Source: Chloroflexaceae bacterium (GTDB lineage: Bacteria > Chloroflexota > Chloroflexia > Chloroflexales > Chloroflexaceae). From it: 37,013 nucleotides of DNA. The number at the start of each line of letters is the position of its first letter. The first letter of the stretch is position 1. Shown piece after piece: positions 9,902 through 24,859 of this stretch. Location of the stretch: contig JANQID010000081.1 of NCBI GenBank assembly GCA_028282325.1, positions 1 through 37,013 on the forward strand, given 5' to 3'. The translations under genes were made by a program, and so were the position numbers. The notes beneath the pieces were generated by a model. That model ran no database searches. It saw nothing but the letters and a program-made list of their open reading frames with translations, and had not been told where the DNA came from.

Positions 9902-11281
9902 ATGTACGTAACGCCCGTTTCAAACGAGTTGTTGGAGCGCTATAACAAGCCTGGTCCACGCTATACCAGCTACCCGACGGTTCCGGTATGGAAGGCGGAT
10001 TTCGGCGAGGATGACTATCGCGCGGCATTGCGCGACCTCGCTGCACAAACCAATCCGATTGTCTCCCTCTACGTCCATATTCCCTTCTGCGCGACGCGTT
10101 GTTACTACTGCGGGTGCAATGCTACGGTCACGCGTCGGGAGGAGGTTGTTGATGTTTATCTTGATCGTGTTCAGCACGAATTGGAAATGGTAACGGAATC
10201 GCTGGGCAAGGGCAAGCGGGTTGTGCAGCTGCACTGGGGCGGTGGCACACCGAACTTTCTCACCAATGACCAGATGGAACGGTTGTTCAGAATGCTCGAC
10301 GATCACTTTGCGATTGATCGTGACGGCGAGCTGGCGATCGAGATCGATCCACGCATCGGTACGCGCGAGCAGATCGGTTTCCTCAAGCAACTAGGCTTTA
10401 ATCGAATCAGCCTAGGTGTGCAAGATTTTGATGACTTTGTGCAAGAGGCGATCGGGCGCATTCAGCCGATCGACCTGACACGCGAACAGTATTACGTAAG
10501 TCGTGAACTCGGCTTCGAAAGCGTCAATTTGGATATGGTGTACGGTCTGCCATTCCAGACGGCGGAGACATTCGAGATCACGCTGCAAGAAGTGATCAAC
10601 CTCAAGCCCGATCGCATCGCGTGTTTCAGCTATGCGCATGTGCCCTGGGTGAAGTCGAACCAGAAACGCATCGACACCAGCAAGTTGCCCGACACCAACA
10701 CCAAGTTTCAGCTTTTCCAGACCGCCATCGCTGCTTTCACCGAAGCCGGTTACGATTGGATCGGTATGGACCATTTCGCCCAGCATGACGACGAGATGGC
10801 GGTTGCGGTGCGCGAGCGTCGCTTGCATCGCAATTTTATGGGCTATACCACCCGGCCCGCGTTGCATATGATTGCCCTGGGAATGAGCGGCATCAGTGAC
10901 TTGGCCGGGCGCTTCGTTCAGAATGACCACAAGCTCGGCAGTTACCAAAAGACGTTGGACAGCGGTCATCTGCCGGTGGTGCGCGGGTATCATCTCAACG
11001 AAGATGATCGCATCCGGCGCCTAGCCATCACCCATCTAATGTGCAACCTGGAATTGCCCTTTGACCTGACGAAGGCCGAGTTTGGCGTACGTCTTGACGA
11101 AGTGGCTGGCGAAAGCCTGGAACGCCTGGAAGCCTATATCGATGAAGGCTTCGTTGAATTTACGCCGGATCGGCTCATCGTTACCCCGCTGGGCCGTTAT
11201 TTTGTTCGCAATCTGGCAATGGAATTGGACGCCCATTTGGAGAAGAACAGTGATCGTCCGATCTTCTCGAAGACGATCTGA
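9902..11281 (+). CDS. hemN: oxygen-independent coproporphyrinogen III oxidase (radical SAM)
   Basis: Radical SAM enzyme decarboxylating two propionates of coproporphyrinogen III to give protoporphyrinogen IX without oxygen. It is a genuine HemN rather than the haem chaperone HemW. It has the N-terminal GPRYTSYPT (18-26), the four-cysteine motif CxxxCxxCxC at Cys63, Cys67, Cys70 and Cys72, the SAM-binding LHWGGGTP, and the full HemN length of 459 residues. GAGGAG precedes the ATG and the gap to bchH is only 14 nt, so it is probably co-transcribed. The anaerobic enzyme fits an anoxygenic phototroph. Confidence 0.95.
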   Translation: MYVTPVSNELLERYNKPGPRYTSYPTVPVWKADFGEDDYRAALRDLAAQTNPIVSLYVHIPFCATRCYYCGCNATVTRREEVVDVYLDRVQHELEMVTESLGKGKRVVQLHWGGGTPNFLTNDQMERLFRMLDDHFAIDRDGELAIEIDPRIGTREQIGFLKQLGFNRISLGVQDFDDFVQEAIGRIQPIDLTREQYYVSRELGFESVNLDMVYGLPFQTAETFEITLQEVINLKPDRIACFSYAHVPWVKSNQKRIDTSKLPDTNTKFQLFQTAIAAFTEAGYDWIGMDHFAQHDDEMAVAVRERRLHRNFMGYTTRPALHMIALGMSGISDLAGRFVQNDHKLGSYQKTLDSGHLPVVRGYHLNEDDRIRRLAITHLMCNLELPFDLTKAEFGVRLDEVAGESLERLEAYIDEGFVEFTPDRLIVTPLGRYFVRNLAMELDAHLEKNSDRPIFSKTI

Positions 11282-11330
11282 CGATCACACGTTCTCGTAT
11301 TCACAGCTTGTGATGAGGGAGTTTGCAGGT

Positions 11331-13046
11331 ATGAATCGTCTACGCATTGTCGCCATTCTCATGCTGGCTATGATCCTTGCCGCATGTGGGGGCGCTGCCC
11401 AACCGGAAGCCCCAACCGCCGAGCCGCAGGCGACAGAACCGACGGAAGCCCTGGCGCAGGAGCCGACCGAGGCTGCCGAGCCAGCAGCCGAACCGACCGC
11501 TGAACCACAGACTGAAGAGGCGACTGAGGAAGTCGCAGACGACGGCCCCGTGATGGGCGGCAGCGTGACCCGTGCCCTGACATCGGAGCCGACCAGCCTC
11601 GACCCGGCCGGGCCGACGGGTTCCGGTCAGAACATCTTGATGCCCTACATCTACGACACGCTGGTTGTGCGTGATGCAAACGGCAAGGTTTATCCATCGC
11701 TGGCCGAAGACTGGGAAATCTCGGATGACGGAACCGAGATCACTTTCAATCTCCAAGAGGGGATTTTGTTCCACGACGGCACGCCGCTGAACGCCGAGGC
11801 AATCGCATTCAGCTATGCGCGTTTCCAGGAGCCGGACAACAAGTCGCCGCTGTCCGCCACCTTTAGGGACGCGACGATCGAGGCCGTCGATGAGCTGACG
11901 GTGAAGTTCACCTTCCCCAAAGCGTCGGCAGCGATTTTCAGCGCGTTGACTAAGCCTTACGCCGGCATCGCCAGCCCGACGGCGGTGGAAGAATACGGCG
12001 AGGAGTTCGGCCAGAATCCGGTCGGTAGCGGCCCGTTCAAGCTGGCCTCGTGGGATGCGGGTGTCGCGATCACGCTCGAGCGCAACGAAGATTACGTGTG
12101 GGGACCAACGCTAGTTGAGAATCAGGGAGCGCCTTACATCGACCAGGCAGTCTTCAAGGTTGTGCCCGATGCCGCCACCCAGATCGCCGCGCTGCAAGCG
12201 GGCGAAGTGGATGTCATCTTCGTGAACAACCCAGAGCAAGTCTTGGATCTGCAGCAAGACGAGAACATCCAGCTGATCGAGACCTACCTCAACAGCTTGA
12301 TCTTCCTCGCCTTCAACAACCAGAAGTCACCGTTTGACGATGTGTTGGTGCGCCGCGCACTGTCGCATGCAATCGATAAGAGCGTGATCGTCCAGGCAGC
12401 GTTGAACGGCGTGGGAACCGAAGCCTGGTCGTTTATGACGACGACGTTGCCCGGCTATGATCCAACTCTGGAAGAGCTCTCCCTGGGCTACGATCCGGAG
12501 CAGGCTCAGGCGCTGCTGGCGGAAGCCGGCTTCACGCAAGATGCAGACGGAATGCAGACAAAAGACGGCGAACCGCTGAGCGGCGTTCTGCTCACATCAA
12601 CCCGTGCGCCGAACCAGATTATCGCCGAGATCATCCAGAGCCAGTTCAAGGACATTGGCGTGGCGATGGAGATCCAACAGCTTGATGCGCCGACGGCAAT
12701 GCAAACCGCGGGCCAGGGCGAGTTTGACTTCTGGCTGTGGCGCTACGACTGGGACGACCCGGAGATCTTGAGCATCAAGTTCGCATCCGCTCGCGCCGGC
12801 AGCTCCAACCGCAGCTTCTATAACAACCCCGACGTTGATGCGCTGCTCGAACAGGCGGCGGTCGAGATGGATCCGGATGCACGTGCCCAACTGTATGTCG
12901 AAGCGCAGAAGCTGATTATGGCCGACGCGCCCTGGCAGCCGCTCTACGAACCAAAGAACTTCCTGGCTGTCAACAATCGCGTGCAGGGAGTGGTGATCGG
13001 TTCGATGGGCCGTATGATGCTCAACGATGCACAGATCGTCGAGTGA
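11331..13046 (+). CDS. ABC transporter substrate-binding lipoprotein, peptide/nickel (SBP_bac_5) family
   Basis: Extracytoplasmic solute-binding lipoprotein of 571 residues. The signal peptide ends in lipobox LAAC with the lipidated Cys19, followed by a Thr/Glu/Pro/Ala repeat linker (about 22-71) typical of Chloroflexi lipoproteins. The mature domain shows family landmarks: SEPTSLDPAGPTG, LAEDWEISDDGTEITFNL, GILFHDGTPLNAEAIAFSY, NPVGSGPFKL and VRRALSHAIDKSVI. The ATG at 11331 is chosen because GAGGGAG is 9 nt upstream and the signal peptide starts there; an upstream extension would bury the signal peptide. Two permease genes follow. The family binds oligopeptides, dipeptides, nickel and, in Dpp/Sap systems, haem or 5-aminolevulinate, so the hem/bch context makes a tetrapyrrole-related ligand possible but unproven. 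Confidence 0.92.
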   Translation: MNRLRIVAILMLAMILAACGGAAQPEAPTAEPQATEPTEALAQEPTEAAEPAAEPTAEPQTEEATEEVADDGPVMGGSVTRALTSEPTSLDPAGPTGSGQNILMPYIYDTLVVRDANGKVYPSLAEDWEISDDGTEITFNLQEGILFHDGTPLNAEAIAFSYARFQEPDNKSPLSATFRDATIEAVDELTVKFTFPKASAAIFSALTKPYAGIASPTAVEEYGEEFGQNPVGSGPFKLASWDAGVAITLERNEDYVWGPTLVENQGAPYIDQAVFKVVPDAATQIAALQAGEVDVIFVNNPEQVLDLQQDENIQLIETYLNSLIFLAFNNQKSPFDDVLVRRALSHAIDKSVIVQAALNGVGTEAWSFMTTTLPGYDPTLEELSLGYDPEQAQALLAEAGFTQDADGMQTKDGEPLSGVLLTSTRAPNQIIAEIIQSQFKDIGVAMEIQQLDAPTAMQTAGQGEFDFWLWRYDWDDPEILSIKFASARAGSSNRSFYNNPDVDALLEQAAVEMDPDARAQLYVEAQKLIMADAPWQPLYEPKNFLAVNNRVQGVVIGSMGRMMLNDAQIVE

Positions 13047-13073
13047 TGATCGAAGCGTTCGAATGGTGAGACG

Positions 13074-14006
13074 ATGGCGAGCTTTGTCATCAGACGAATA
13101 GGAAATGCGGCGCTTGTGCTGCTCGTGGTCAGCTTTCTGACCTATGCGCTCCTGGAGTTTGCGCCCAGCGATGCTGCGTTCACGCTGCTCGCAGGCGAGG
13201 AGGCATCTGCGGAGCAAATTGCAACACTGCGCCACGAGCTTGGTCTCGATAAGCCGCTTGCCGTGCGCTACCTTTCGTTTCTGTCAGGGGCAGTTTTGCA
13301 CGGCGACCTGGGGCAATCGATTATGAGCGGACGCGACGTGAGCGAATTACTAGGCGAACGTTTCGTCAATACGCTGATCCTGACGCTGATGGCGACGGTT
13401 CTTTCGCTGTCGATTGGTACGTTAGCCGGTATTCTGGCAGCTGCGCGGCCCGGAAGCTTCCTGGAGGCGGGAGTTATGTTCTTCGTCATCGTCGGGCTGG
13501 CTCTCCCAACCTTCTGGGTCGCGTTGCTCATGATTATGGTCTTTTCGCTGCATCTGGGATGGTTGCCGGTCGTCGGCGCCGGAACCTGGACGCACATGGT
13601 TCTGCCGACGGTTTCGCTCGCCCTGCCGACGACTGCCGTCGTCGCGCGGCTAGTGCGCGCCAGCGTTCTTGACGTGAAAGGCGCGGATCACGTGCGCACG
13701 GCGCGCTCAAAAGGATTGGACAGTCGGCAGACCTGGCAATATCACATCTTGCGCAACAGTATGATCCCGGTGATTACGCTGATCGGGCTCCACCTGGGTC
13801 ATCTCTTAAGCGGAACATTTATCATCGAGACGATCTTTGGCTGGCCTGGCCTGGGGCGTCTCGTCGTCCAGGCGATTTTTGATCGCGACCTGCCGGTCGT
13901 CGTCGGCGCAGTTATTTTGATCGCCGTCATTTTCCAGATTCTAAACCTGGCGGTTGATGTTGCGCATGCACGACTTGATCCGCGCGTAGGTCGCGAAGCT
14001 CTCTAG
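13074..14006 (+). CDS. ABC transporter permease, DppB/OppB type
   Basis: Inner-membrane permease of 310 residues with about six transmembrane segments. It shows the DppB N-terminal pattern (MASFVIRRIGNAALVLLVVS), the family-specific LGLDKPLAVRYL (57-67) and HGDLGQSIMSGRDV, and the cytoplasmic EAA loop around 204-220 (ADHVRTARSKGL) that docks an ABC ATPase. It sits 27 nt after the substrate-binding lipoprotein and 59 nt before the DppC-type partner. No DppD/DppF-like ATPase gene occurs anywhere in the window, so the ATPases must be supplied from elsewhere. Confidence 0.93.
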   Translation: MASFVIRRIGNAALVLLVVSFLTYALLEFAPSDAAFTLLAGEEASAEQIATLRHELGLDKPLAVRYLSFLSGAVLHGDLGQSIMSGRDVSELLGERFVNTLILTLMATVLSLSIGTLAGILAAARPGSFLEAGVMFFVIVGLALPTFWVALLMIMVFSLHLGWLPVVGAGTWTHMVLPTVSLALPTTAVVARLVRASVLDVKGADHVRTARSKGLDSRQTWQYHILRNSMIPVITLIGLHLGHLLSGTFIIETIFGWPGLGRLVVQAIFDRDLPVVVGAVILIAVIFQILNLAVDVAHARLDPRVGREAL

Positions 14007-14065
14007 TCCGCTGACAACGACCAGGGCATTGGTGTAACAGCGCACACAGTGCAACGGACAAAGCA

Positions 14066-15097
14066 ATGGCTATTCCGGCAAGCTCCACAACTGAACGAAC
14101 CGTGACGTTGTCGCCTTCCGGTCAGGTTGCGCTCCGCCAGAATGTACGACGATCAGCGTGGCGCTGGCCAGCGATTGTATCACCGCAACTGATCATCGGC
14201 AGCGCGCTGCTCGCACTGCTGATCATCGCGGCCATATTTGCGCCGATCCTGGCGATCAGCCCGCCGGATGAGATCGAGCCGGTGCAACGCCTGTTGCCGC
14301 CAAGCCCGGAACATCCTTTTGGCACTGACCAACTGGGACGCGATCTCTTTAGCCGCGTCATCTACGGGTCGCGCCTGGCCTTGCAGATGTCGGTGCTGTC
14401 GGTGGCGCTGTCGGCAATACCTGGCATTGTGTTGGGATTGATCGCCGGTTATTATCGCAACTGGATCAACATCGCGCTAACAATGGTAATGGATGCCTGG
14501 CTGTCGTTTCCTGGCTTGCTGCTAGCGATTGTGCTGGTAGCTCGAATGGGGCCGTCGCTGGGAACAACGGTGATCGCCCTGGGCATTGTGGGCGTTCCGG
14601 CGTTTTATCGCCTGGTGCGCAATAGCACGATGTCGGCTCGGCACGCGCTCTACATCGAGGCGGCGTATTCGATGGGCTTTAGCGAAGCGCGAATCTTGTT
14701 TCGCCATGTGCTGCCGAACCTGGCGTCACCGATTATCGTACTCACAACACTGCGTCTGGGCGCGATGTTGCTCGCCGGCGGCGGCTTGAGCTTCATCGGG
14801 CTGGGCGCCCAGCCGCCCGACCCCGAATGGGGCGCATTGCTGGCTGCGGGGCGCGATTCGATGGGGCGTGCATGGTGGCTGGCAACTTTCCCCGGCCTGG
14901 CAATCGCCCTGAGCGTTCTGGGGTTTAATCTGATGGGCGATGGGTTGCGCGACGCGCTTGCGCCCGATCAAAAAAGCCGGCGCAGCCACAAACCGAAAGT
15001 ACGGCGGATTGAACGTTGGCTAGCCGTCGCTCGCGGTCTCCGCGCAGGCGGCAAGCAGAGCGACCAGCAGGCCGCTTCATCAATGAACCAGGGCTGA
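14066..15097 (+). CDS. ABC transporter permease, DppC/OppC type
   Basis: Second permease of the importer, 343 residues. A longer hydrophilic N-terminus precedes the first membrane segment (about 40-62). Then come PFGTDQLGRDLFSRVIYGSR (84-103), the hallmark of DppC/OppC proteins, and an EAA loop at about 198-218 (IEAAYSMGFSEARILFRHVL). The C-terminal cytosolic tail (about 300-343) is basic and low in complexity. The SBP-DppB-DppC order is standard, but here the set is inserted between hemN and the protoporphyrinogen oxidase gene and lacks ATPases. Confidence 0.93.
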   Translation: MAIPASSTTERTVTLSPSGQVALRQNVRRSAWRWPAIVSPQLIIGSALLALLIIAAIFAPILAISPPDEIEPVQRLLPPSPEHPFGTDQLGRDLFSRVIYGSRLALQMSVLSVALSAIPGIVLGLIAGYYRNWINIALTMVMDAWLSFPGLLLAIVLVARMGPSLGTTVIALGIVGVPAFYRLVRNSTMSARHALYIEAAYSMGFSEARILFRHVLPNLASPIIVLTTLRLGAMLLAGGGLSFIGLGAQPPDPEWGALLAAGRDSMGRAWWLATFPGLAIALSVLGFNLMGDGLRDALAPDQKSRRSHKPKVRRIERWLAVARGLRAGGKQSDQQAASSMNQG

Positions 15098-15123
15098 AGA
15101 ATAGAAACAAGGTGTCAACGGCG

Positions 15124-16545
15124 ATGACAAACTATTCGTGTATCGTAGTCGGTGGCGGAATGAGCGGGCTGAGCGCAGCCTACGCATTGTATCAACGCGG
15201 AGTCAATGTCTTGCTGGTGGAAGCCAGCGAGTATGTCGGCGGCGCAATTCGCAGTGAGCAAACCGCCGATGGGTTTTCGCTGGAACATGGTACCAATACT
15301 GTCACCAGCAAAGCGCAGGAATTGTGGGATCATTTCGAAGATCTGGGGATTGCCGATCAGAAGCTGGTCGCCGCGCGCGAGGGCGGGCGCCGCTTCATCG
15401 TGCATAACGGCGCGCCAACATTGATCCCGATGTCGCCCCCGGCATTTTTGAAAAGCTCGCTGCTCTCGACAAAAGCCAAACTCCGGCTATTCGCCGAGCC
15501 ATTGATTCCACGCGCGGTTACACCCGATGAGAACATTCGCTCATTCTTTACCCGACGGCTTGGGACTGAACCCGCACAGGTGCTGGTCGATCCCTTCGTG
15601 TCGGGCGTCTACGCGGGAAATCCGCTGGAAACTTCGGTGCGTTCGGCATTTTCATCGATGTGGGAAGCTGAGCAACAATATGGCAGCATCGTGATCGGCA
15701 TGATCGCCGGAGGTCGCGCCAAAGCCAAAGCTCAGCCAAAGCCCAAAGGGCCGCGTCCGCGCAGCGTGCTCTTTACGTTCCAGGGTGGTCTCGCGTCCTG
15801 GCCCAATGCCATCGCCGACGCACTCGGCCCCGACCGCGTCTGGTTGAATAGCCCCGCCACCGGTCTGCGCAAGATCGATCGTGGATGGGAGCTGACCGTC
15901 AACCGCGCCGGGCAGCCGGAAACGCTCACCGCCGATCGTGTGGTGCTGGCATCGCCGGCGTACGTGTCCGCCGATCTGGTGGCCGATATTGACCCGGACG
16001 CCGCCAAAGCGTTGCGCAAGATTTTCTACCCGCCAATGGCAGTGGTACACCTTGGCTTCCGGCGCGAAGATGTGGAACACCCGATGGATGGCTTTGGGAT
16101 GCTTTGCCCGTCGCGCGAGCAGCGCAAGGTGTTGGGCGTGCTCTGGCCTTCAGCCCTGTTCCCCGGACGTGCGCCGGAGGGGGTGGTGTTGACTTCGTCG
16201 TTTGTTGGCGGCGCCCGGGTGCCCTATCTGGCGACACAGGACAACGACACGATCATCGATATGGTGATCAAGGAACATCAAGAACTGCTCGGCGCACGCG
16301 GCGAACCGGTGATGGCCAAAGTAGCGAACTGGCCGCGCGCAATCGCACAATACTTCGGCGGTCACGATCGTATCCTCACCGCAGTGAAGCGTATGGAAGC
16401 GATGTGGTCGGGACTGTATCTGATCGGCAACTATCGCGACGGCGTGAGCGTCGGTGATTGTTGGAAGAACGGGCGGGCTTTGGCCGAACGGATCGCCGAA
16501 TATGAACCGTCGCGCCTGTTAGAACAGGCTGTAGCTACAACCTGA
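15124..16545 (+). CDS. hemY: protoporphyrinogen oxidase (HemY/HemG-type FAD enzyme)
   Basis: FAD-dependent six-electron oxidation of protoporphyrinogen IX to protoporphyrin IX, the branch-point substrate for ferrochelatase and Mg chelatase. The 473-residue product starts with the dinucleotide-binding motif VVGGGMSGLSAAYAL (8-22) and has LVEASEYVGGAIRSE and FSLEHGTNTVTSK. The C-terminal FAD-proximal NYRDGVSVGDCWKNGRALAE completes the match to HemY-type PPO rather than carotenoid desaturase. A Lys/Ala/Pro stretch (about 199-214) is an unusual insertion. ATG 15124 is chosen from the GxGxxG distance and AAGGTG 9 nt upstream; GTG 15112 is an alternative. It lies 26 nt after the DppC-type gene. Confidence 0.92.
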   Translation: MTNYSCIVVGGGMSGLSAAYALYQRGVNVLLVEASEYVGGAIRSEQTADGFSLEHGTNTVTSKAQELWDHFEDLGIADQKLVAAREGGRRFIVHNGAPTLIPMSPPAFLKSSLLSTKAKLRLFAEPLIPRAVTPDENIRSFFTRRLGTEPAQVLVDPFVSGVYAGNPLETSVRSAFSSMWEAEQQYGSIVIGMIAGGRAKAKAQPKPKGPRPRSVLFTFQGGLASWPNAIADALGPDRVWLNSPATGLRKIDRGWELTVNRAGQPETLTADRVVLASPAYVSADLVADIDPDAAKALRKIFYPPMAVVHLGFRREDVEHPMDGFGMLCPSREQRKVLGVLWPSALFPGRAPEGVVLTSSFVGGARVPYLATQDNDTIIDMVIKEHQELLGARGEPVMAKVANWPRAIAQYFGGHDRILTAVKRMEAMWSGLYLIGNYRDGVSVGDCWKNGRALAERIAEYEPSRLLEQAVATT

Positions 16546-16642: not shown

Positions 16643-17947
16643 GTGACAATCTTCAAGAATATTCGATTGGGATTGCTGCACGTCGCAGTCACTATCACCC
16701 TTGTCCCTATCACGGGTATGCTCAATCGAATTATGATTCACGAGTTTGGCTTGCTCGCCAGCGTCGTGGCATTTCTCGTGGTTCTGCCAAGCTTGCTCTC
16801 GCCGCTGCAAGTATGGGTCGGTCAATATTCCGACGCCCACCCGCGGTTCGGCTACCGGCGCACCCCCTACATCGTTGCTGGTGTGTTCCTCTGCGTGATC
16901 GGAGCCGTGCTAGCACCCCACGTCGCGCTCCTGATGGCCTCCAAATTTGGGATTGGGATCCTGGTCGGCGCGTTGGTCTTTGGCATCTGGGGCCTGGGGT
17001 TCAATATTGCGGTCGTGTCGTACCTCTCGCTGGCCAGCGATCTGGCGACGGATGAAAACCAGCGTTCGCGCACCATCGCCGTGATGTGGTTCATGATGAT
17101 CACTAGCGTGATACTCACGGCAATTCTTTCCGGCAACGCGGTTGAACCCTACAGCGACGCGAAACTCTTCCTGGTATTCCGGCTGGTCGGGATTATTTCG
17201 ATTGTGGTCGCCGCGCTTGGATTGATCGGTCTAGAACCGCGCTACAACGCGGTCGAACTTGAACAACGCACCAGTAACCGCGCTTCCATTCAGGCCGTTA
17301 TCAATAATCCGCACGCCCGTCTCTTCTTTGTATACCTCATCTTACTTCTCGCAGCCATTCTCGGTCAGGACGTCCTGCTAGAGCCGTTTGGCGCGCAGGC
17401 GTTCGCGATGAGCGTCAAAGAAACCACCCAACTCACCGCGACGTGGGGTAGTATGACACTGTTAGCGCTGGTTTTGCAAGGCTTTGTATTCAACCGCTGG
17501 CTATCCAACAAACAGGGCGCAGCTCTTGGCGGCGTCATCGCGTTTATCGGGCTCGTTACGATAGCGGTCAGCGGCATCCTCCATGTCGAGGCGCTTTTCG
17601 TTCCGGGAGTCGCCACGCTCGGATTTGGCACCGGCATTGCCACATCCACGAATCTTGCACTGATGCTCGGTATGACCACGCCGGAGCAAGTCGGGTTGTT
17701 CATCGGCGCGTGGGGCGTCGCCGACGCAATGGCCCGCGGGGTCGGCAACTTGCTCGGCGGGGTTGTACGCGATGTCATTGCCTACAGTACCGGCAGCGCC
17801 AGCGGCGCTTATGTAAGCGTCTTCTTAATCGAGGCCGTTATGCTCGGCTTCTCGCTGATCCTGTTGCATCGAATCAACGTCAAAGCATTCCACTCTCATC
17901 AGCAACCGTCGTTGACCCAGATCGTCGCTATCGCGGGGGACGCATAA
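16643..17947 (+). CDS. PucC/BCH-family MFS protein
   Basis: Integral membrane protein of 434 residues with about 12 predicted membrane segments. It belongs to the BCH/PucC branch of the major facilitator superfamily, which is linked to assembly of bacteriochlorophyll-protein complexes (PucC, LhaA) or pigment handling. Diagnostic features are NIRLGLLHVAVTITLVPITG near the start, the conserved DAHPRFGYRRTPYI loop, GQDVLLEPFG (241-250) and TPEQVGLFIGAWGVADAMARG. The start is GTG at 16643 with GGGAG about 8 nt upstream. It has its own predicted promoter and stands alone between the bch/hemY unit and the hemA unit, so the context supports a role in bacteriochlorophyll protein assembly. Confidence 0.9.
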   Translation: MTIFKNIRLGLLHVAVTITLVPITGMLNRIMIHEFGLLASVVAFLVVLPSLLSPLQVWVGQYSDAHPRFGYRRTPYIVAGVFLCVIGAVLAPHVALLMASKFGIGILVGALVFGIWGLGFNIAVVSYLSLASDLATDENQRSRTIAVMWFMMITSVILTAILSGNAVEPYSDAKLFLVFRLVGIISIVVAALGLIGLEPRYNAVELEQRTSNRASIQAVINNPHARLFFVYLILLLAAILGQDVLLEPFGAQAFAMSVKETTQLTATWGSMTLLALVLQGFVFNRWLSNKQGAALGGVIAFIGLVTIAVSGILHVEALFVPGVATLGFGTGIATSTNLALMLGMTTPEQVGLFIGAWGVADAMARGVGNLLGGVVRDVIAYSTGSASGAYVSVFLIEAVMLGFSLILLHRINVKAFHSHQQPSLTQIVAIAGDA

Positions 17948-18025: not shown

Positions 18026-18057
18026 ATATGTTGTGACATTTTTCTTGTTCGCTGATA

Positions 18058-18083
18058 TTTAGGCAGATTTAGGTAGGTTTAGG
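18058..18083 (+). promoter_or_regulatory. three TTTAGG direct repeats phased at 10 bp, candidate hemA activator site
   Basis: TTTAGG occurs at 18058-18063, 18068-18073 and 18078-18083, exactly one helical turn apart, ending 47 nt before the hemA ATG. The last copy overlaps a possible -35 region (TTAGGC) that is 18 nt from a -10-like TATGTA at 18103-18108. Tandem direct repeats on one DNA face are typical of OmpR/PhoB-type response regulators, which is an inference only. Confidence 0.5.
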
Positions 18084-18130
18084 CATAGCTGTTGCTTAGA
18101 TTTATGTAATAGCTCACGGGGAAAACAACG

Positions 18131-19429
18131 ATGAAGCTCATTATGGTAGGGCTCGATCATACCACCGCGCCGGTTGTCATTCGTGAGCGTCTCGCATTCA
18201 ACGGCTCGCTGTTGCCAGACGCACTCAAACAATTGACCAGCCGACAAGGTGATCGGCGTCCGATCTTGTCCGAGGCGGTTATCCTTTCGACATGCAACCG
18301 TGTAGAGATTTACGGTGTAGCGAGGGAGGCGCACAAAGAGCGTGAGGTCGTGCGCTTTCTCTCCGAGTTCCACGAGATCCCTGAGGAGCAATTCGCTCAC
18401 TGTCTGCTGATCCACACGGGTGAAGCGGTTTCGCGCCACCTGGGGCAAACCGCCGCCGGGTTGCGTTCGCTGGTGTTGGGCGAGGCGCAGATTCAAGGCC
18501 AGGTGCGCACCGCCGCCGAAGAGGCGCAGAAGGTCGGCACGCTCGGCCCCGGGTTGGATCGCCTGTTCCGCAATGCGATTACTTCGGGCAAGCGCGTCCG
18601 CCACGAGACGACGCTCGGCCAGGGTGCGGCCAGTGTGTCGCAGGCCGGCGTCGAGTTGGCGCGCATGCGCCTGGGCTCGCTGGAAGGCGTCTCCGTAGCT
18701 TTGATCGGCAGCGGCGAAGTCAGCGAGCTGGCCGCCCAAAACTTGCTTGCAAACGGCGCCCGTAATCTGATGATCGTGAACCGCACCCTGGCCAACGCCG
18801 AGAAACTCGCCGAGCGGTATAGCGCACGGGCCTATTCCTTCGACAATCTGCATCACGTGCTTTCCCACGCCGATATCGTCATTAGCTCGACTGCCGCGCC
18901 TACAACTATCCTGCATCGCGATCAGATCGCCGACGCTCTTCAGGCCAAACGTGAACAGTGCGGCGATCAGCAGCAGGAAATGCTGTTGATCGACCTGGCG
19001 GTGCCGCGCGACATTGACGAGGATGTCGCTGAAATTCCGGGCGTCTATCTGGCCACCGTGGATGACCTGCGCGAAGTGATAAGCCATACCCTGGAGCTGC
19101 GCAACGCCGTTGCCGCGATCGCCGAACGCATCGTCGAGGAAGAAATGGAAAAGTTCAATGCCTGGCTGCGCAGCCAGGACGCGCTGCCGATCCTCTCCAC
19201 CATGCGTCAGCAGGCTGAGACGCTGCGCAGCTCCGAGGTTGAGCGCGCGATGCGTCGGCTCAACGATCTTTCGCCGGAACAGCAGTCGGTTATCGAAGCG
19301 TTCAGCCACGCTCTCGTCAACAAACTGCTCCACCACCCGACATTGCGGGTGAAGAGCGCCGCAGCTCAGGGCGAAGGGCAGCGCTACGCGATGATTCTTC
19401 GCGATCTGTTCGATATTGAGACGATCTGA
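18131..19429 (+). CDS. hemA: glutamyl-tRNA reductase
   Basis: NADPH-dependent reduction of glutamyl-tRNA to glutamate-1-semialdehyde, the first committed and usually rate-controlling step of the C5 tetrapyrrole pathway. The 432 residues include the catalytic domain with nucleophile Cys55 in [10 protein letters not shown], the [12 protein letters not shown] motif (about 114-125), the NADPH-binding stretch [16 protein letters not shown] (about 186-201) and a C-terminal helical dimerisation domain. GGGGA lies about 8 nt before the ATG. It heads a hemA-C-D-B-E-L gene run. The nested palindrome and phased TTTAGG repeats just upstream suggest this is the control point of the unit. Its product is the substrate of HemL, the last gene in the run. 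Confidence 0.96.
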
Positions 19430-19471: not shown

Positions 19472-20425
19472 ATGACGAAGTTGACCATTGGCACCCGCGG
19501 CAGCAAGCTGGCCCTCACGCAATCGGAAATGATGGCGGCGGCGTTGCGCGCCCTTTATCCCGATCTGGACATCGAGATGCAAATCATCTCAACGCAGGGT
19601 GACCGCATTCTCGATGTGGCGCTCTCTGCCGTGGGCGACAAGGGGCTGTTTGTGAAGGAGCTGGAGACGGCGCTGTTGAACGGTGAAGTTGATTTTGCTG
19701 TGCATAGTGGCAAGGATATGCCTTCCGAACAGCCTGAAGGCTTGACGCTGGTTGCGTTTCCGCAGCGCGTCGATCCGCGTGACGCCTTGATTCTGCCCGC
19801 AGACCGAACCGATGTTGATCCCGATGTTGCGGCGCTTGATCTGTTGCCCCAGGGCGCTCACGTCGGTACCAGCAGCTTGCGACGCACATGCCAGTTGCGC
19901 GCGCTGCGTCCCGACCTGCGGATCAGCGATGTGCGGGGCAATGTGGATACCCGCCTGCGCAAGCTTGACGAGGGTCAGTACGATGCGTTGATTCTGGCTG
20001 CTGCCGGATTGACGCGCCTGGGCCTGGGAGCGCGGATCACGCGCTCGTTGCCTGCCGATGTGATGATTCCTGCGGTGGCCCAGGGTGCCCTGGCGATCGA
20101 AGCGCGCGTCGATGACGACGCTACGCTTGGTCGTCTCAAAGCGCTTGATCACTACGCCACGCGCGTCGCCGTTCTGGCCGAACGCGCATTCTTGCGACGG
20201 CTGGAAGGCGGCTGTCAGGTCCCTATTGCCGCCTACGCCATCCTCGATGAAGCTACGTCCGCACTTACACTCAATGGACTGGTCGGCTCACTGGATGGGA
20301 CAACGATTATCCGCGATCAGCGTGTCGGCAGCGTGGATGACCCGGAGAGTCTGGGGATCGCGCTGGCCGAGGATCTCCTCGTACGCGGCGCTGATCATAT
20401 CCTGGCTGACATCCGAGCAGTATAG
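19472..20425 (+). CDS. hemC: hydroxymethylbilane synthase (porphobilinogen deaminase)
   Basis: Polymerises four porphobilinogen units to hydroxymethylbilane. The 317-residue protein has RGSKLALTQ (9-17), DFAVHSGKDMP (74-84), GTSSLRRTCQL (132-142), RGNVDTRLRKL (155-165), and the dipyrromethane-cofactor attachment Cys248 in RLEGGCQVPI. AGGAAGAG precedes the ATG. It sits 42 nt after hemA and 8 nt before hemD. Confidence 0.96.
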   Translation: MTKLTIGTRGSKLALTQSEMMAAALRALYPDLDIEMQIISTQGDRILDVALSAVGDKGLFVKELETALLNGEVDFAVHSGKDMPSEQPEGLTLVAFPQRVDPRDALILPADRTDVDPDVAALDLLPQGAHVGTSSLRRTCQLRALRPDLRISDVRGNVDTRLRKLDEGQYDALILAAAGLTRLGLGARITRSLPADVMIPAVAQGALAIEARVDDDATLGRLKALDHYATRVAVLAERAFLRRLEGGCQVPIAAYAILDEATSALTLNGLVGSLDGTTIIRDQRVGSVDDPESLGIALAEDLLVRGADHILADIRAV

Positions 20426-20433
20426 AGGAAGCA

Positions 20434-21255
20434 ATGATCTGGAGTCAAACGTCAGGCCACTGTCCCGATCCATCTCAATCGCCGTTGGCCGGCAAGCGCA
20501 TTGTGATCACGCGGCCCGAAGATCGCGCCGATACGCTGGTCGATCATTTGCGCCACCTGGGGGCCGAGCCAGTCGTCTATCCGACTATCGCATTCGTTCC
20601 GCCGGAAGACACAGCGCCGCTCGATGCGGCGTTGCAACAACTGGCCGCCGGGGCTTACGACTGGCTCGTGCTTTCAAGCGTGACCGGCGTGCATATGGTG
20701 CATCAACGATTGTCGGCGCTACACATCGACCTGCGCAATGCAATCGCCCGCATCGCGGCGGTCGGCCCGGTGACCGCCGAAGAGTGCCGCGATTTTCTGG
20801 GCGTCCAACCTGCCGTAGTGCCGGAGAAGTTTGTCGGCGAGGCGTTGGCCGAAGCGTTGGGCGATACCAACGGCTTGCGTATTCTGCTGGCCAATGCCGA
20901 CATCGCCCGCCCGGCCCTGGAGGAGCGGCTGCGCGAGGCCGGGGCTCAGGTTGAACGCGCGATCGCGTACCGTACCGTTCCGGCGACCGGCGGCGATGTT
21001 GATCTGCCGGGATTGCTCGCTAGCGGCGTGATCGATTTTATTACCTTTACCAGTGGATCAACCGTGCGCAACTTTCTGGATCGCATTGGCCCCGATGCCG
21101 CGAAGCATATGCATCGCACCGCAATTGCCTGCATCGGCCCGATAACGGCAAAAGTCGTCGAAGAACTGGGAATGACGCCGGCTGTTGTCGCCGAGCAATA
21201 CACCGAGGAAGGTCTGGTTGGCGCATTGGTCGCCTACGCCCAGCGTGACCAATGA
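20434..21255 (+). CDS. hemD: uroporphyrinogen-III synthase
   Basis: Cyclises hydroxymethylbilane with inversion of ring D to uroporphyrinogen III. HemD proteins are poorly conserved; support comes from the two-lobe pattern KRIVITRPEDRADTLVDHL (21-39) and VVYPTIAF, LVLSSVTGVHMV, AAVGPVTAEEC, and the C-terminal DFITFTSGSTVRNFL and ACIGPITAKVVEELG. Position between hemC and hemB supports the call. The length is 273 residues and the start has GAGGAAG overlapping the end of hemC, suggesting translational coupling. Confidence 0.92.
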   Translation: MIWSQTSGHCPDPSQSPLAGKRIVITRPEDRADTLVDHLRHLGAEPVVYPTIAFVPPEDTAPLDAALQQLAAGAYDWLVLSSVTGVHMVHQRLSALHIDLRNAIARIAAVGPVTAEECRDFLGVQPAVVPEKFVGEALAEALGDTNGLRILLANADIARPALEERLREAGAQVERAIAYRTVPATGGDVDLPGLLASGVIDFITFTSGSTVRNFLDRIGPDAAKHMHRTAIACIGPITAKVVEELGMTPAVVAEQYTEEGLVGALVAYAQRDQ

Positions 21256-21310
21256 TACCGGCGCGGTCTGCATCTTGTCAGGAAGCGCCGCATTTGAAGG
21301 AGATCGCATT

Positions 21311-22324
21311 ATGAGTCATTATCCCGTCTTGCGCCCACGCCGCCTACGTATGAACCAGAATCTGCGCCGCATGGTTCGCGAAACGACATTGAGCGTCGAT
21401 AATCTGATCGCGCCGCTGTTTGTGCGCCACGGCCAAGGCGTTGAACGCCCGATTGTCTCGATGCCCGGCCACAACCAGTTGTCGGTTGACATGGCGGTGC
21501 GCGAGGCCGAGACATTGGCCGAGATGGGCATTCCCGCCGTGTTGCTGTTTGGCATTCCGCAGGTGAAAGACGCGACCGGCAGCGAGAATTATGATCCCGA
21601 AGGCATCGTTCCCCAGGCGATCCGTGCGATCAAAGCCGCCGTTCCTGAGATGATCGTGATCTCGGACATGTGCTGCTGCGAATATACCGACCATGGTCAC
21701 TGCGGCATCCTGAACGCCATCGACTCGCCCGGCTACGACTCCCATTTGCCTGAAGGCTACCTACTCAACGATCAGACCCTGGAGATCCTGGGGCACGCGT
21801 CGACGGTGCATGCCGAGGCCGGCGTCGATATTATCGCGCCGTCGGGCATGATGGACGGCATGGTCGGCGCGATCCGGCAAGCGCTGGATGCAGCCGGTTT
21901 CGCCCATACAACCATTATGAGCTATTCGGCCAAGTTCGCCAGCGGCTTCTACGGACCCTTCCGCGACGCCGCCGAGAGTCCGCCCAGCTTTGGCGACCGG
22001 AGCCAGTACCAGATGGATCCGCCGAACTCGCGCGAGGCGCTGAAGGAAGTCTCGCTCGATGTGGAAGAAGGCGCGGACATCCTGATGGTCAAACCGGCGC
22101 TGGCGTATCTCGACATCATCCAGCGCATCAAGGACGAGTTCGCGCTTCCACTGGCCGCCTATCAGGTAAGCGGCGAGTTCAGCATGGTCAAAGCTGCGGC
22201 AGCTCAGGGCTGGATCGACGAGGATCGCGTGGCTCTGGAGTCGCTCTACGCCATTCGCCGCGCCGGCGCAGATATGATCATCACCTACTTCGCTAAAGAC
22301 GCTGTTCGCTGGCTGAAAGGGTAA
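21311..22324 (+). CDS. hemB: porphobilinogen synthase (delta-aminolevulinic acid dehydratase), zinc-type
   Basis: Condenses two 5-aminolevulinate molecules to porphobilinogen. From ATG 21311, which has AAGGAGAT at 21298-21305, the product has 337 residues. An upstream in-frame extension of 42 codons overlaps hemD and lacks family similarity. The zinc-binding triad Cys121, Cys123 and Cys131 lies in DMCCCEYTDHGHCG, marking the zinc-dependent class. The Schiff-base lysines are Lys208 in SYSAKFASGFYGPF and Lys261 in MVKPALAYLD. It is 55 nt after hemD. Confidence 0.96.
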   Translation: MSHYPVLRPRRLRMNQNLRRMVRETTLSVDNLIAPLFVRHGQGVERPIVSMPGHNQLSVDMAVREAETLAEMGIPAVLLFGIPQVKDATGSENYDPEGIVPQAIRAIKAAVPEMIVISDMCCCEYTDHGHCGILNAIDSPGYDSHLPEGYLLNDQTLEILGHASTVHAEAGVDIIAPSGMMDGMVGAIRQALDAAGFAHTTIMSYSAKFASGFYGPFRDAAESPPSFGDRSQYQMDPPNSREALKEVSLDVEEGADILMVKPALAYLDIIQRIKDEFALPLAAYQVSGEFSMVKAAAAQGWIDEDRVALESLYAIRRAGADMIITYFAKDAVRWLKG

Positions 22325-22333
22325 GATGCGCGC

Positions 22334-22365
22334 CGCTCCTCCGGGGAGCGCAGGCCGCTGGCCTG
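22334..22365 (+). other. two tandem GC-rich hairpins between hemB and hemE
   Basis: CGCTCC (22334-22339) pairs with GGAGCG (22345-22350). Immediately after, CAGGCC (22351-22356) pairs with GGCCTG (22360-22365). A further CGGGCA/TGCCCG pair lies at 22392-22397 and 22412-22417. No T-tract follows, so mRNA stabilisation or attenuation within the hem operon is as likely as termination. Confidence 0.4.
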
Positions 22366-22471
22366 TATGAGCGCAAGGCGTCATTGCAGACCGGGCAGGT
22401 TCCCGAAAATTTGCCCGATCCGTCAACCTTGTACGGTTCACGTTTGACCTGAAGATAACGGAGTCACTTGC

Positions 22472-23530
22472 ATGCTCAATGATCGTTTTCTCCGCGCCTG
22501 CCGTCGTGAGGCGGTCGATTGTACGCCCGTGTGGCTAATGCGCCAGGCCGGGCGCTATATGTCCGAATATCGCGCCGTGCGCGAACGCTATGGCTTTTTG
22601 CAAATGGTCAAGACGCCCGAAGTCGCGACCGAGGTGACGCTCCAGCCGATCAACGCCTACGATGTCGATGCGGCGATCATCTTCGCCGATATTCTGCCGC
22701 CGTTGGAAGGGCTGGGGATCACGCTGACCTACGAGAAGGGCGAAGGCCCGGTCATTCACAATCCGGTGCGCACGGCGAATGACGTTGCTGCGCTGCGCGA
22801 GGTTGACCCCCGCGAGACGGTGGCCTACACGATCGAGGCAGTTCGCCTGACCAAGCAAGCTCTGGCGGATCGCGTCCCGCTCATCGGCTTCAGCGGTGCG
22901 CCGTTTACCCTGGCAAGCTATACCATCGAAGGTGGCGGCTCGCGCGAGTATCGCCGCACCAAAGCGCTGATGTACAGCGAACCGGAGGTTTGGCGCGAAC
23001 TGATGGGCAAGCTGACCAGTCTGGTGAGCAGCTACCTGATCGCGCAGGTCGAGGCCGGTGCCGACGCCGTGCAGATTTTCGATAGTTGGGCCGGCGCGCT
23101 GTCGCCGGGCGACTTTGCCGAGTATGTGCTGCCCTATGTCCAGCAGGCCATCGCCGACTTCCGCGCGGCAACCGGCCCGACCGCGCCGCCGGTGATCTAC
23201 TTCGGCACGGATATGAGCGGTATGTACAGCCTGCTGCATCAGACCGGCGCCGATGTGCTGGGAGCCGACTGGCGGATCTACCTGGACAACGCCTGGGAGC
23301 AGATCGGGCCGGACATCGGCGTACAGGGCAATCTCGATCCGAACGTGCTCTTCGCGCCCTGGCCCGAAGTGCAGCGCCGCGCCGCCGATATTCTCGATCG
23401 CGCGGGCGGGCGGCCCGGCCATATCTTCAACCTGGGCCACGGGATTATGACCGAAACGCCGGTGGAGAATGTTCGCCAGCTTGTCGAGTTCGTCCACGAG
23501 TATTCGGCGACGATCAAAGCGAATGGTTAA
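22472..23530 (+). CDS. hemE: uroporphyrinogen decarboxylase
   Basis: Removes four carboxyl groups from uroporphyrinogen III to make coproporphyrinogen III, the substrate of HemN. The 352-residue protein carries the family signature [17 protein letters not shown] (18-34) with substrate-binding Arg24 and Arg28, the catalytic Asp73 in [31 protein letters not shown], and [10 protein letters not shown] near the C-terminus. CGGAG is 8 nt before the ATG. The 147-nt gap from hemB contains tandem hairpins. hemL follows after 18 nt. Confidence 0.96.
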
Positions 23531-23548
23531 TAATTCAGGAGATGATAT

Positions 23549-24859
<1,311 letters not shown>

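Follow-up and report, generated by a model that had tools for sequence, protein, structure and literature searches.

Streptomyces BldC, a developmental regulator of 68 residues with no further domain, is described in PMC5859096 as binding 9-bp direct repeats with the consensus AATTXXXX(C), its protomers being arranged head to tail. CarH is described in PMC9304148 as binding three or four 11-bp repeats of the form TnnACA that overlap promoter elements. As far as these two accounts go, the system analyzed here shares with BldC a winged helix-turn-helix (HTH) of the same kind and tandem direct repeats in variable number, and its repeats in Herpetosiphonaceae recur every 9 bp, as BldC sites do. 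It differs from BldC in an extra C-terminal domain of the regulator, in the word AGRTTT, in a spacing that is mostly 10 bp, and in its heme-gene targets. With CarH and LitR, on the same footing, it has in common MerR-type heads and tandem direct repeats overlapping promoter elements, whereas neither 11-bp TnnACA repeats nor a B12 domain was seen in it. In the literature searched, from which subscription journals were mostly missing, we found no account of how Chloroflexota regulate the transcription of genes for heme or bacteriochlorophyll-precursor synthesis.

Two further systems offer partial parallels. In Streptomyces, the gene of the repressor Rex lies upstream of hemACD, and Rex controls the adjoining hemA; the neighborhood of repressor gene and hemA is alike, but the protein family and the palindromic operator of Rex are not. 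RpaB of cyanobacteria, an OmpR-family response regulator with photosystem targets, is associated with HLR1 elements, direct repeats near promoters that have the same 10-bp phase but a different word, regulator family and target set. Against this background, we analyzed a 37,013-nt stretch of Chloroflexaceae DNA (the window), in which three phased repeats precede hemA. Judged from sequence comparison, these repeats probably form the hemA operator of a previously undescribed BldC-type repressor of heme biosynthesis in Chloroflexota, which would also control its own gene. The finding supplies a concrete operator of defined phase and position, together with a candidate regulator and a short list of targets, and would carry over to a metabolic regulon the mode known from BldC and CarH, in which MerR-type heads occupy tandem direct repeats.

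The repeat array in front of hemA

The presumed controlled gene, at 18131..19429 on the + strand, was identified as hemA (glutamyl-tRNA reductase) by Pfam matches to GlutR_N, Shikimate_DH and GlutR_dimer, in agreement with its earlier assignment. Domain matches placed hemC, hemD, hemB, hemE and hemL behind it (19472..24859, + strand), and their order and strand indicate that they are probably co-transcribed with hemA. The gene immediately preceding the promoter region of hemA is PucC-like (16643..17947, + strand, domain match). Also upstream are hemY, encoding protoporphyrinogen oxidase (15016..16545, + strand, TIGR00562), and hemN, bchH-like and bchM-like genes, with an oligopeptide-type ABC transporter (11082-15097) between hemN and hemY.

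The original prediction of three TTTAGG hexamers at exact 10-bp phase was confirmed. The sequence TTTAGGcagaTTTAGGtaggTTTAGG occupies 18058-18083 on the + strand, which leaves 47 nt between its end and the ATG of hemA at 18131. At up to three mismatches the triple pattern had a single match in the window, while shuffled windows gave a mean of 0.01 matches (1 of 100 shuffles had one). The shorter pattern TTTAGGN4TTTAGG had two overlapping matches in the 4,617,442-base genome, both at the hemA site and none elsewhere, making the array unique in this genome. TTTAGG itself was considered as the conserved word and rejected: TTTAGGN4TTTAGG recurred in just 2 of 40 other family genomes, and the hemA upstream sequences show AGRTTT. 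By this comparison, AGRTTT is the conserved word, and the trailing AGG of TTTAGG lies outside the conserved part. The candidate operator array, delimited by pattern and profile searches to 18055..18083 on the + strand and containing the TTTAGG triplet, thus consists of three 10-bp-phased units, a degenerate ATATTT (18055-18060), AGATTT (18065-18070) and AGGTTT (18075-18080), all on the + strand.

An operator profile trained without the source genome gave its two highest scores in the window at 18055 and 18065 (22.3 and 21.6 bits), followed by 13.6 bits at the next best place. By this profile none of the bch promoters of the window has the AGRTTT motif, and no second AGRTTT pair at up to one mismatch was detected at the other promoters of the window. 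In the whole source genome, TAGRTTTN3TAGRTTT at up to two mismatches had 17 matches against 42 for a reversed-pattern control, indicating that weak matches in this genome are mostly due to chance.

Conservation and promoter position in relatives

Apart from the source genome itself, the genomes searched came from outside the source genus, and hemA was present in 39 of 41 of them, the source genome counted. Pairs of AGRTTT at period 10 were scored within 200 nt upstream of hemA; the word had been picked after viewing the same upstream sequences, and the rows of the test are genomes, with several genera contributing two or more, so that the following counts are not fully independent. At up to one mismatch, a pair preceded hemA in 15 of the 24 other genomes of the family (shuffles, mean 0.08), and at up to two mismatches in 19 of 24 (shuffles, mean 1.01, maximum 5). 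Hence the repeats were conserved across the family, whereas their absence before hemA in close relatives, along with a start site elsewhere, had been named as the outcome that would refute the proposed control site. At up to one mismatch, pairs were also found before the regulator gene discussed below (10 of 25; shuffles, mean 0.03) and before DUF4491 (14 of 19; shuffles, mean 0.05), while control periods of 7-9 and 11-14 gave 0-2 and the reverse strand at period 10 gave 0 AGRTTT pairs. Examples of phased units upstream of hemA are AGATTTACGT, AGATTTAGAC and AGTTTTGCTG at locus L019 and AGATTTGAGT, AGTTTTCGGT, AGTTTTTCGC and AGCTTTGATA at locus L024. Five of the 24 family genomes (L005, L006, L015, L016, L017) had no site upstream of hemA at two mismatches, and these represent two whole genera and one genome of a third. 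This conservation supports the predicted character of the array as a tandem, helically phased candidate site for protein binding. The original observation fell short of the full case, and its interpretation was about half right.

The placement of the array was compared with that of the promoter elements. Upstream of hemA in the window, a possible but weak -35 element, TTGTGA, was matched at 18031..18036, and, with the promoters of relatives as a guide, GATATT at 18054..18059 is a possible -10 element (both + strand), which overlaps the degenerate unit 1. With their 17-nt spacing the two hexamers have 8 of 12 consensus matches, and no site passed a standard promoter scan at this hemA. The array of the window thus overlaps the presumed -10 rather than following it. 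In the relatives, the array mostly lies 11-15 nt downstream of the -10 of a TTGACA-17-TANNNT promoter; where the promoter is clear, the first strong unit mostly begins 11-12 nt after the -10 hexamer at hemA and 15 nt after it at DUF4491. These distances suggest that in relatives the array sits at the transcription start and not on the -35 element, and the overlap with a -35 region that had been proposed was not borne out.

Outside Chloroflexaceae (f1), we considered Herpetosiphonaceae (f3), which are not known to be phototrophic, and two further families of the order (f2 and f4). Of the genomes of these other families, 14 yielded a hemA, and every one of the 14 has the regulator gene upstream of it in the same orientation, with gaps of 31 to 756 nt by match ends. 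Repeats at 10 bp stand upstream of the regulator in 5 of 5 genomes of f2, and repeats of the same word at 9 bp stand before a regulator-hemA operon in 6 of 6 Herpetosiphonaceae genomes (L227, L232-L236). No clear site was found before the regulator in f4, with a 10-bp pair in 0 of 5 genomes and a 9-bp pair in 1 of 5. Families with 9-bp and 10-bp repeats provide a natural comparison of repeat spacing. Matches to the regulator at E 0.001 occurred in 44 of 46 relatives, the weakest covering the HTH alone, and 150 of the 301 Chloroflexota genomes sampled had one at E 1e-15. From outside the order, 20 regulator loci were fetched, namely the 17 best listed and 3 that ranked lower; hemA, hemC, hemH or hemY was present in the fetched stretch in 12 of them, and a 10-bp operator in 5.

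DUF4491, hemH and the late steps of heme synthesis

Across 41 whole family genomes, TAGRTTTN3TAGRTTT had 17 sites at zero mismatches, of which 8 stood before hemA, 7 before DUF4491, 1 before a gene for a regulator-type HTH (in G016) and 1 without an assigned gene. DUF4491 (PF14898) is a small gene whose product looks like a membrane protein. A second DUF4491 gene follows the first in 18 of 19 loci, and beyond the pair 4 of 8 loci read farther (L302-L305) continue with a gene for a hemY-like flavin oxidase. In the source genome, the DUF4491 promoter is TTGACA-17-TAGAAT followed by three phased units; its site has three mismatches to TAGRTTTN3TAGRTTT and was located by going to the gene. The original prediction had called for a search of other bch and hem promoters for 10-bp-phased TTTAGG; the operator, with AGRTTT as its word, stands at hemA and hemH, and no bch promoter of the window has it.

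Canonical hemH carried the operator in 5 of 5 genomes from two genera (L258-L262), while no operator was found before a more distant hemH (L263) or before six divergent PF00762 copies, one of which is a fragment. Among the 28 genomes of f1 searched, 19 had DUF4491, and 0 of these 19 had canonical hemH. Of the nine lacking DUF4491, five had the operator-bearing hemH and one (G017) the more distant hemH, and the remaining three (G006, G016, G022) are 71-86% complete. On this evidence, DUF4491 and canonical operator-bearing hemH exclude each other in the family (loci L239-L257, L258-L263, L286-L300). A divergent PF00762 copy was present in 5 of the 19 DUF4491 genomes, the source genome among them, and no PF00762 ferrochelatase was found in 27 of 41 family genomes, including complete single-contig genomes of the genus Chloroflexus (g9). 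For Chloroflexus aurantiacus, the genome paper lists hemA, C, D, B, E, L, F, hemN and hemG/Y, and in its main text the terms hemH and ferrochelatase are absent (PMC3150298); Chloroflexota are presented in a review as combining enzymes of three heme pathways (PMC10991733).

The alternation of DUF4491 and hemH within one regulon points to a possible role in late heme synthesis for an uncharacterized family of membrane proteins. Since the operator stands on DUF4491a-b(-hemY) where canonical hemH is lacking and on hemH where DUF4491 is lacking, the observations could be taken further, to a phylum-wide heme regulon under a new tetrapyrrole sensor in which, in Chloroflexaceae, the pair of small DUF4491 membrane proteins replaces ferrochelatase or removes the need for canonical HemH. 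We regard this wider proposal as speculative and rather unlikely.

The candidate regulator and competing explanations

The protein that recurs with the motif is about 205-215 aa long, with an N-terminal HTH_17/MerR_1 head and a conserved C-terminal region. In a profile search against the PDB its HTH matched the BldC structures 6ama (E 8.7e-9) and 6amk (E 1.6e-8), and its NCBIfam HTH_BldC score was 42, below the cut-off of 77. The best match by E-value was 8jbs, a putative cobalamin-binding protein, which covers the HTH and linker only. No solved relative in the PDB was found for the C-terminal domain (about 120 aa). Its invariant residues are W95, R108, G139, Y142, F163, R164 and R191, with no invariant histidine among them. 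Weak protoglobin matches of the C-terminal region were obtained for 3 of 24 members (best E 0.049), and residues 127-204 of the L212 protein matched protoglobin at E 0.1; a single-sequence structure model of the regulator had a mean pLDDT of 52.7. The regulator of the source genome (G000:C47) is 57% identical to the query, and its promoter has a weak reverse-strand site alone (11.7 bits), which makes autoregulation doubtful in this genome. A PucC-like gene follows the regulator gene there (L237:3260-5311), and the same pairing of genes recurs at 16 further loci of the family as well as at L355 and L356. At L152/L188 (G016:C712) the HTH of the regulator carries a different, unrelated C-terminal half, which we take to resemble the regulatory domain of 2-isopropylmalate synthase, while the usual C-terminal half of G016 lies on another contig; G016:C712 may be a fusion or a chimeric assembly.

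The operator and its 10-bp phase, its position in relatives, the target set, the regulator's own operator and the linkage to heme genes are seen in the sequences, and on them we base a probable model of repression by this BldC-type protein. Over two to four AGRTTT units spaced by a helical turn, the regulator would place one protomer on each, forming a head-to-tail row along a single face of the DNA. Because the array of relatives lies just past the -10 and over the transcription start, blocking of initiation is the simplest effect of the bound protein, which would then be a repressor. In most genomes it would control its own gene as well. From the target list alone we infer feedback by heme or a tetrapyrrole, acting on hemA (the first committed step), on hemH or on the DUF4491(-hemY) operon; the C-terminal domain would probably report heme or tetrapyrrole status, although the lack of an invariant histidine and of an identified C-terminal relative makes heme sensing a guess.

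A MerR-superfamily head could also serve activation, the protein reshaping the hemA promoter in the manner of MerR. BldC distorts DNA (PMC5859096), and the window promoter is weak, with the array over its presumed -10. In most relatives, however, the array is located downstream of the -10 in promoters that are close to consensus and have a 17-nt spacer; such promoters need no rescue, and we consider activation unlikely. The original prediction favored a tandem site for an OmpR/PhoB-type response regulator under light or redox control. Such regulators can bind direct repeats, according to the same source, and bch and hem genes are plentiful in the window. The recurrent partner of the motif is instead a MerR/BldC-type winged-HTH gene that carries the same operator, and a response-regulator site gained no support. 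Nor did a light or redox signal, since the motif tracks heme genes rather than bch genes and both motif and regulator occur in the Herpetosiphonaceae, which are not known to be phototrophic. Judged by the regulator genes that recur with the motif, an OmpR/PhoB site is improbable.

Action of the repeats at the RNA level, whether within a leader structure or as a binding site for a protein, would fit their location in the presumed 5' leader of relatives, always on the coding strand, and the window leader folds better than its shuffles (z -2.6). Over 33 leaders, however, the mean folding z was 0.06, with 2 below -2, no Rfam family was matched, and the spacing is 10 or 9 without 1-nt drift within a family, as the DNA helix demands; we give this explanation very little credence. 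A B12-dependent light repressor like CarH or LitR would likewise place tandem direct repeats and a MerR-type head at a promoter. Yet the match of the regulator head to CarH is less close than that to BldC, the NCBIfam CarH score is 15 against a cut-off of 400, no cobalamin-binding domain was among the families shown for 24 regulators, and the repeats are AGRTTT at 10 or 9 bp rather than TnnACA at 11 bp, which leaves a CarH-like repressor barely credible.

Some other features of the window were recorded. At 18072-18105 the third repeat can pair in RNA with the downstream TGCTTAGATTTAT, using many G-U pairs, in an arrangement that is not common to the relatives. At two distant loci of Chloroflexota (L346, L348), the gene of the regulator has homologs of the ABC transporter at 11082-15097 beside it, which suggests a link to transport of heme or a precursor. 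Between 26000 and 37013 the G+C content drops from about 0.63 to 0.36-0.49, and the genes there include those for an AAA-TPR protein, an NlpC/P60 protein, a beta-lactamase-fold protein, DUF4386 and an alcohol dehydrogenase.
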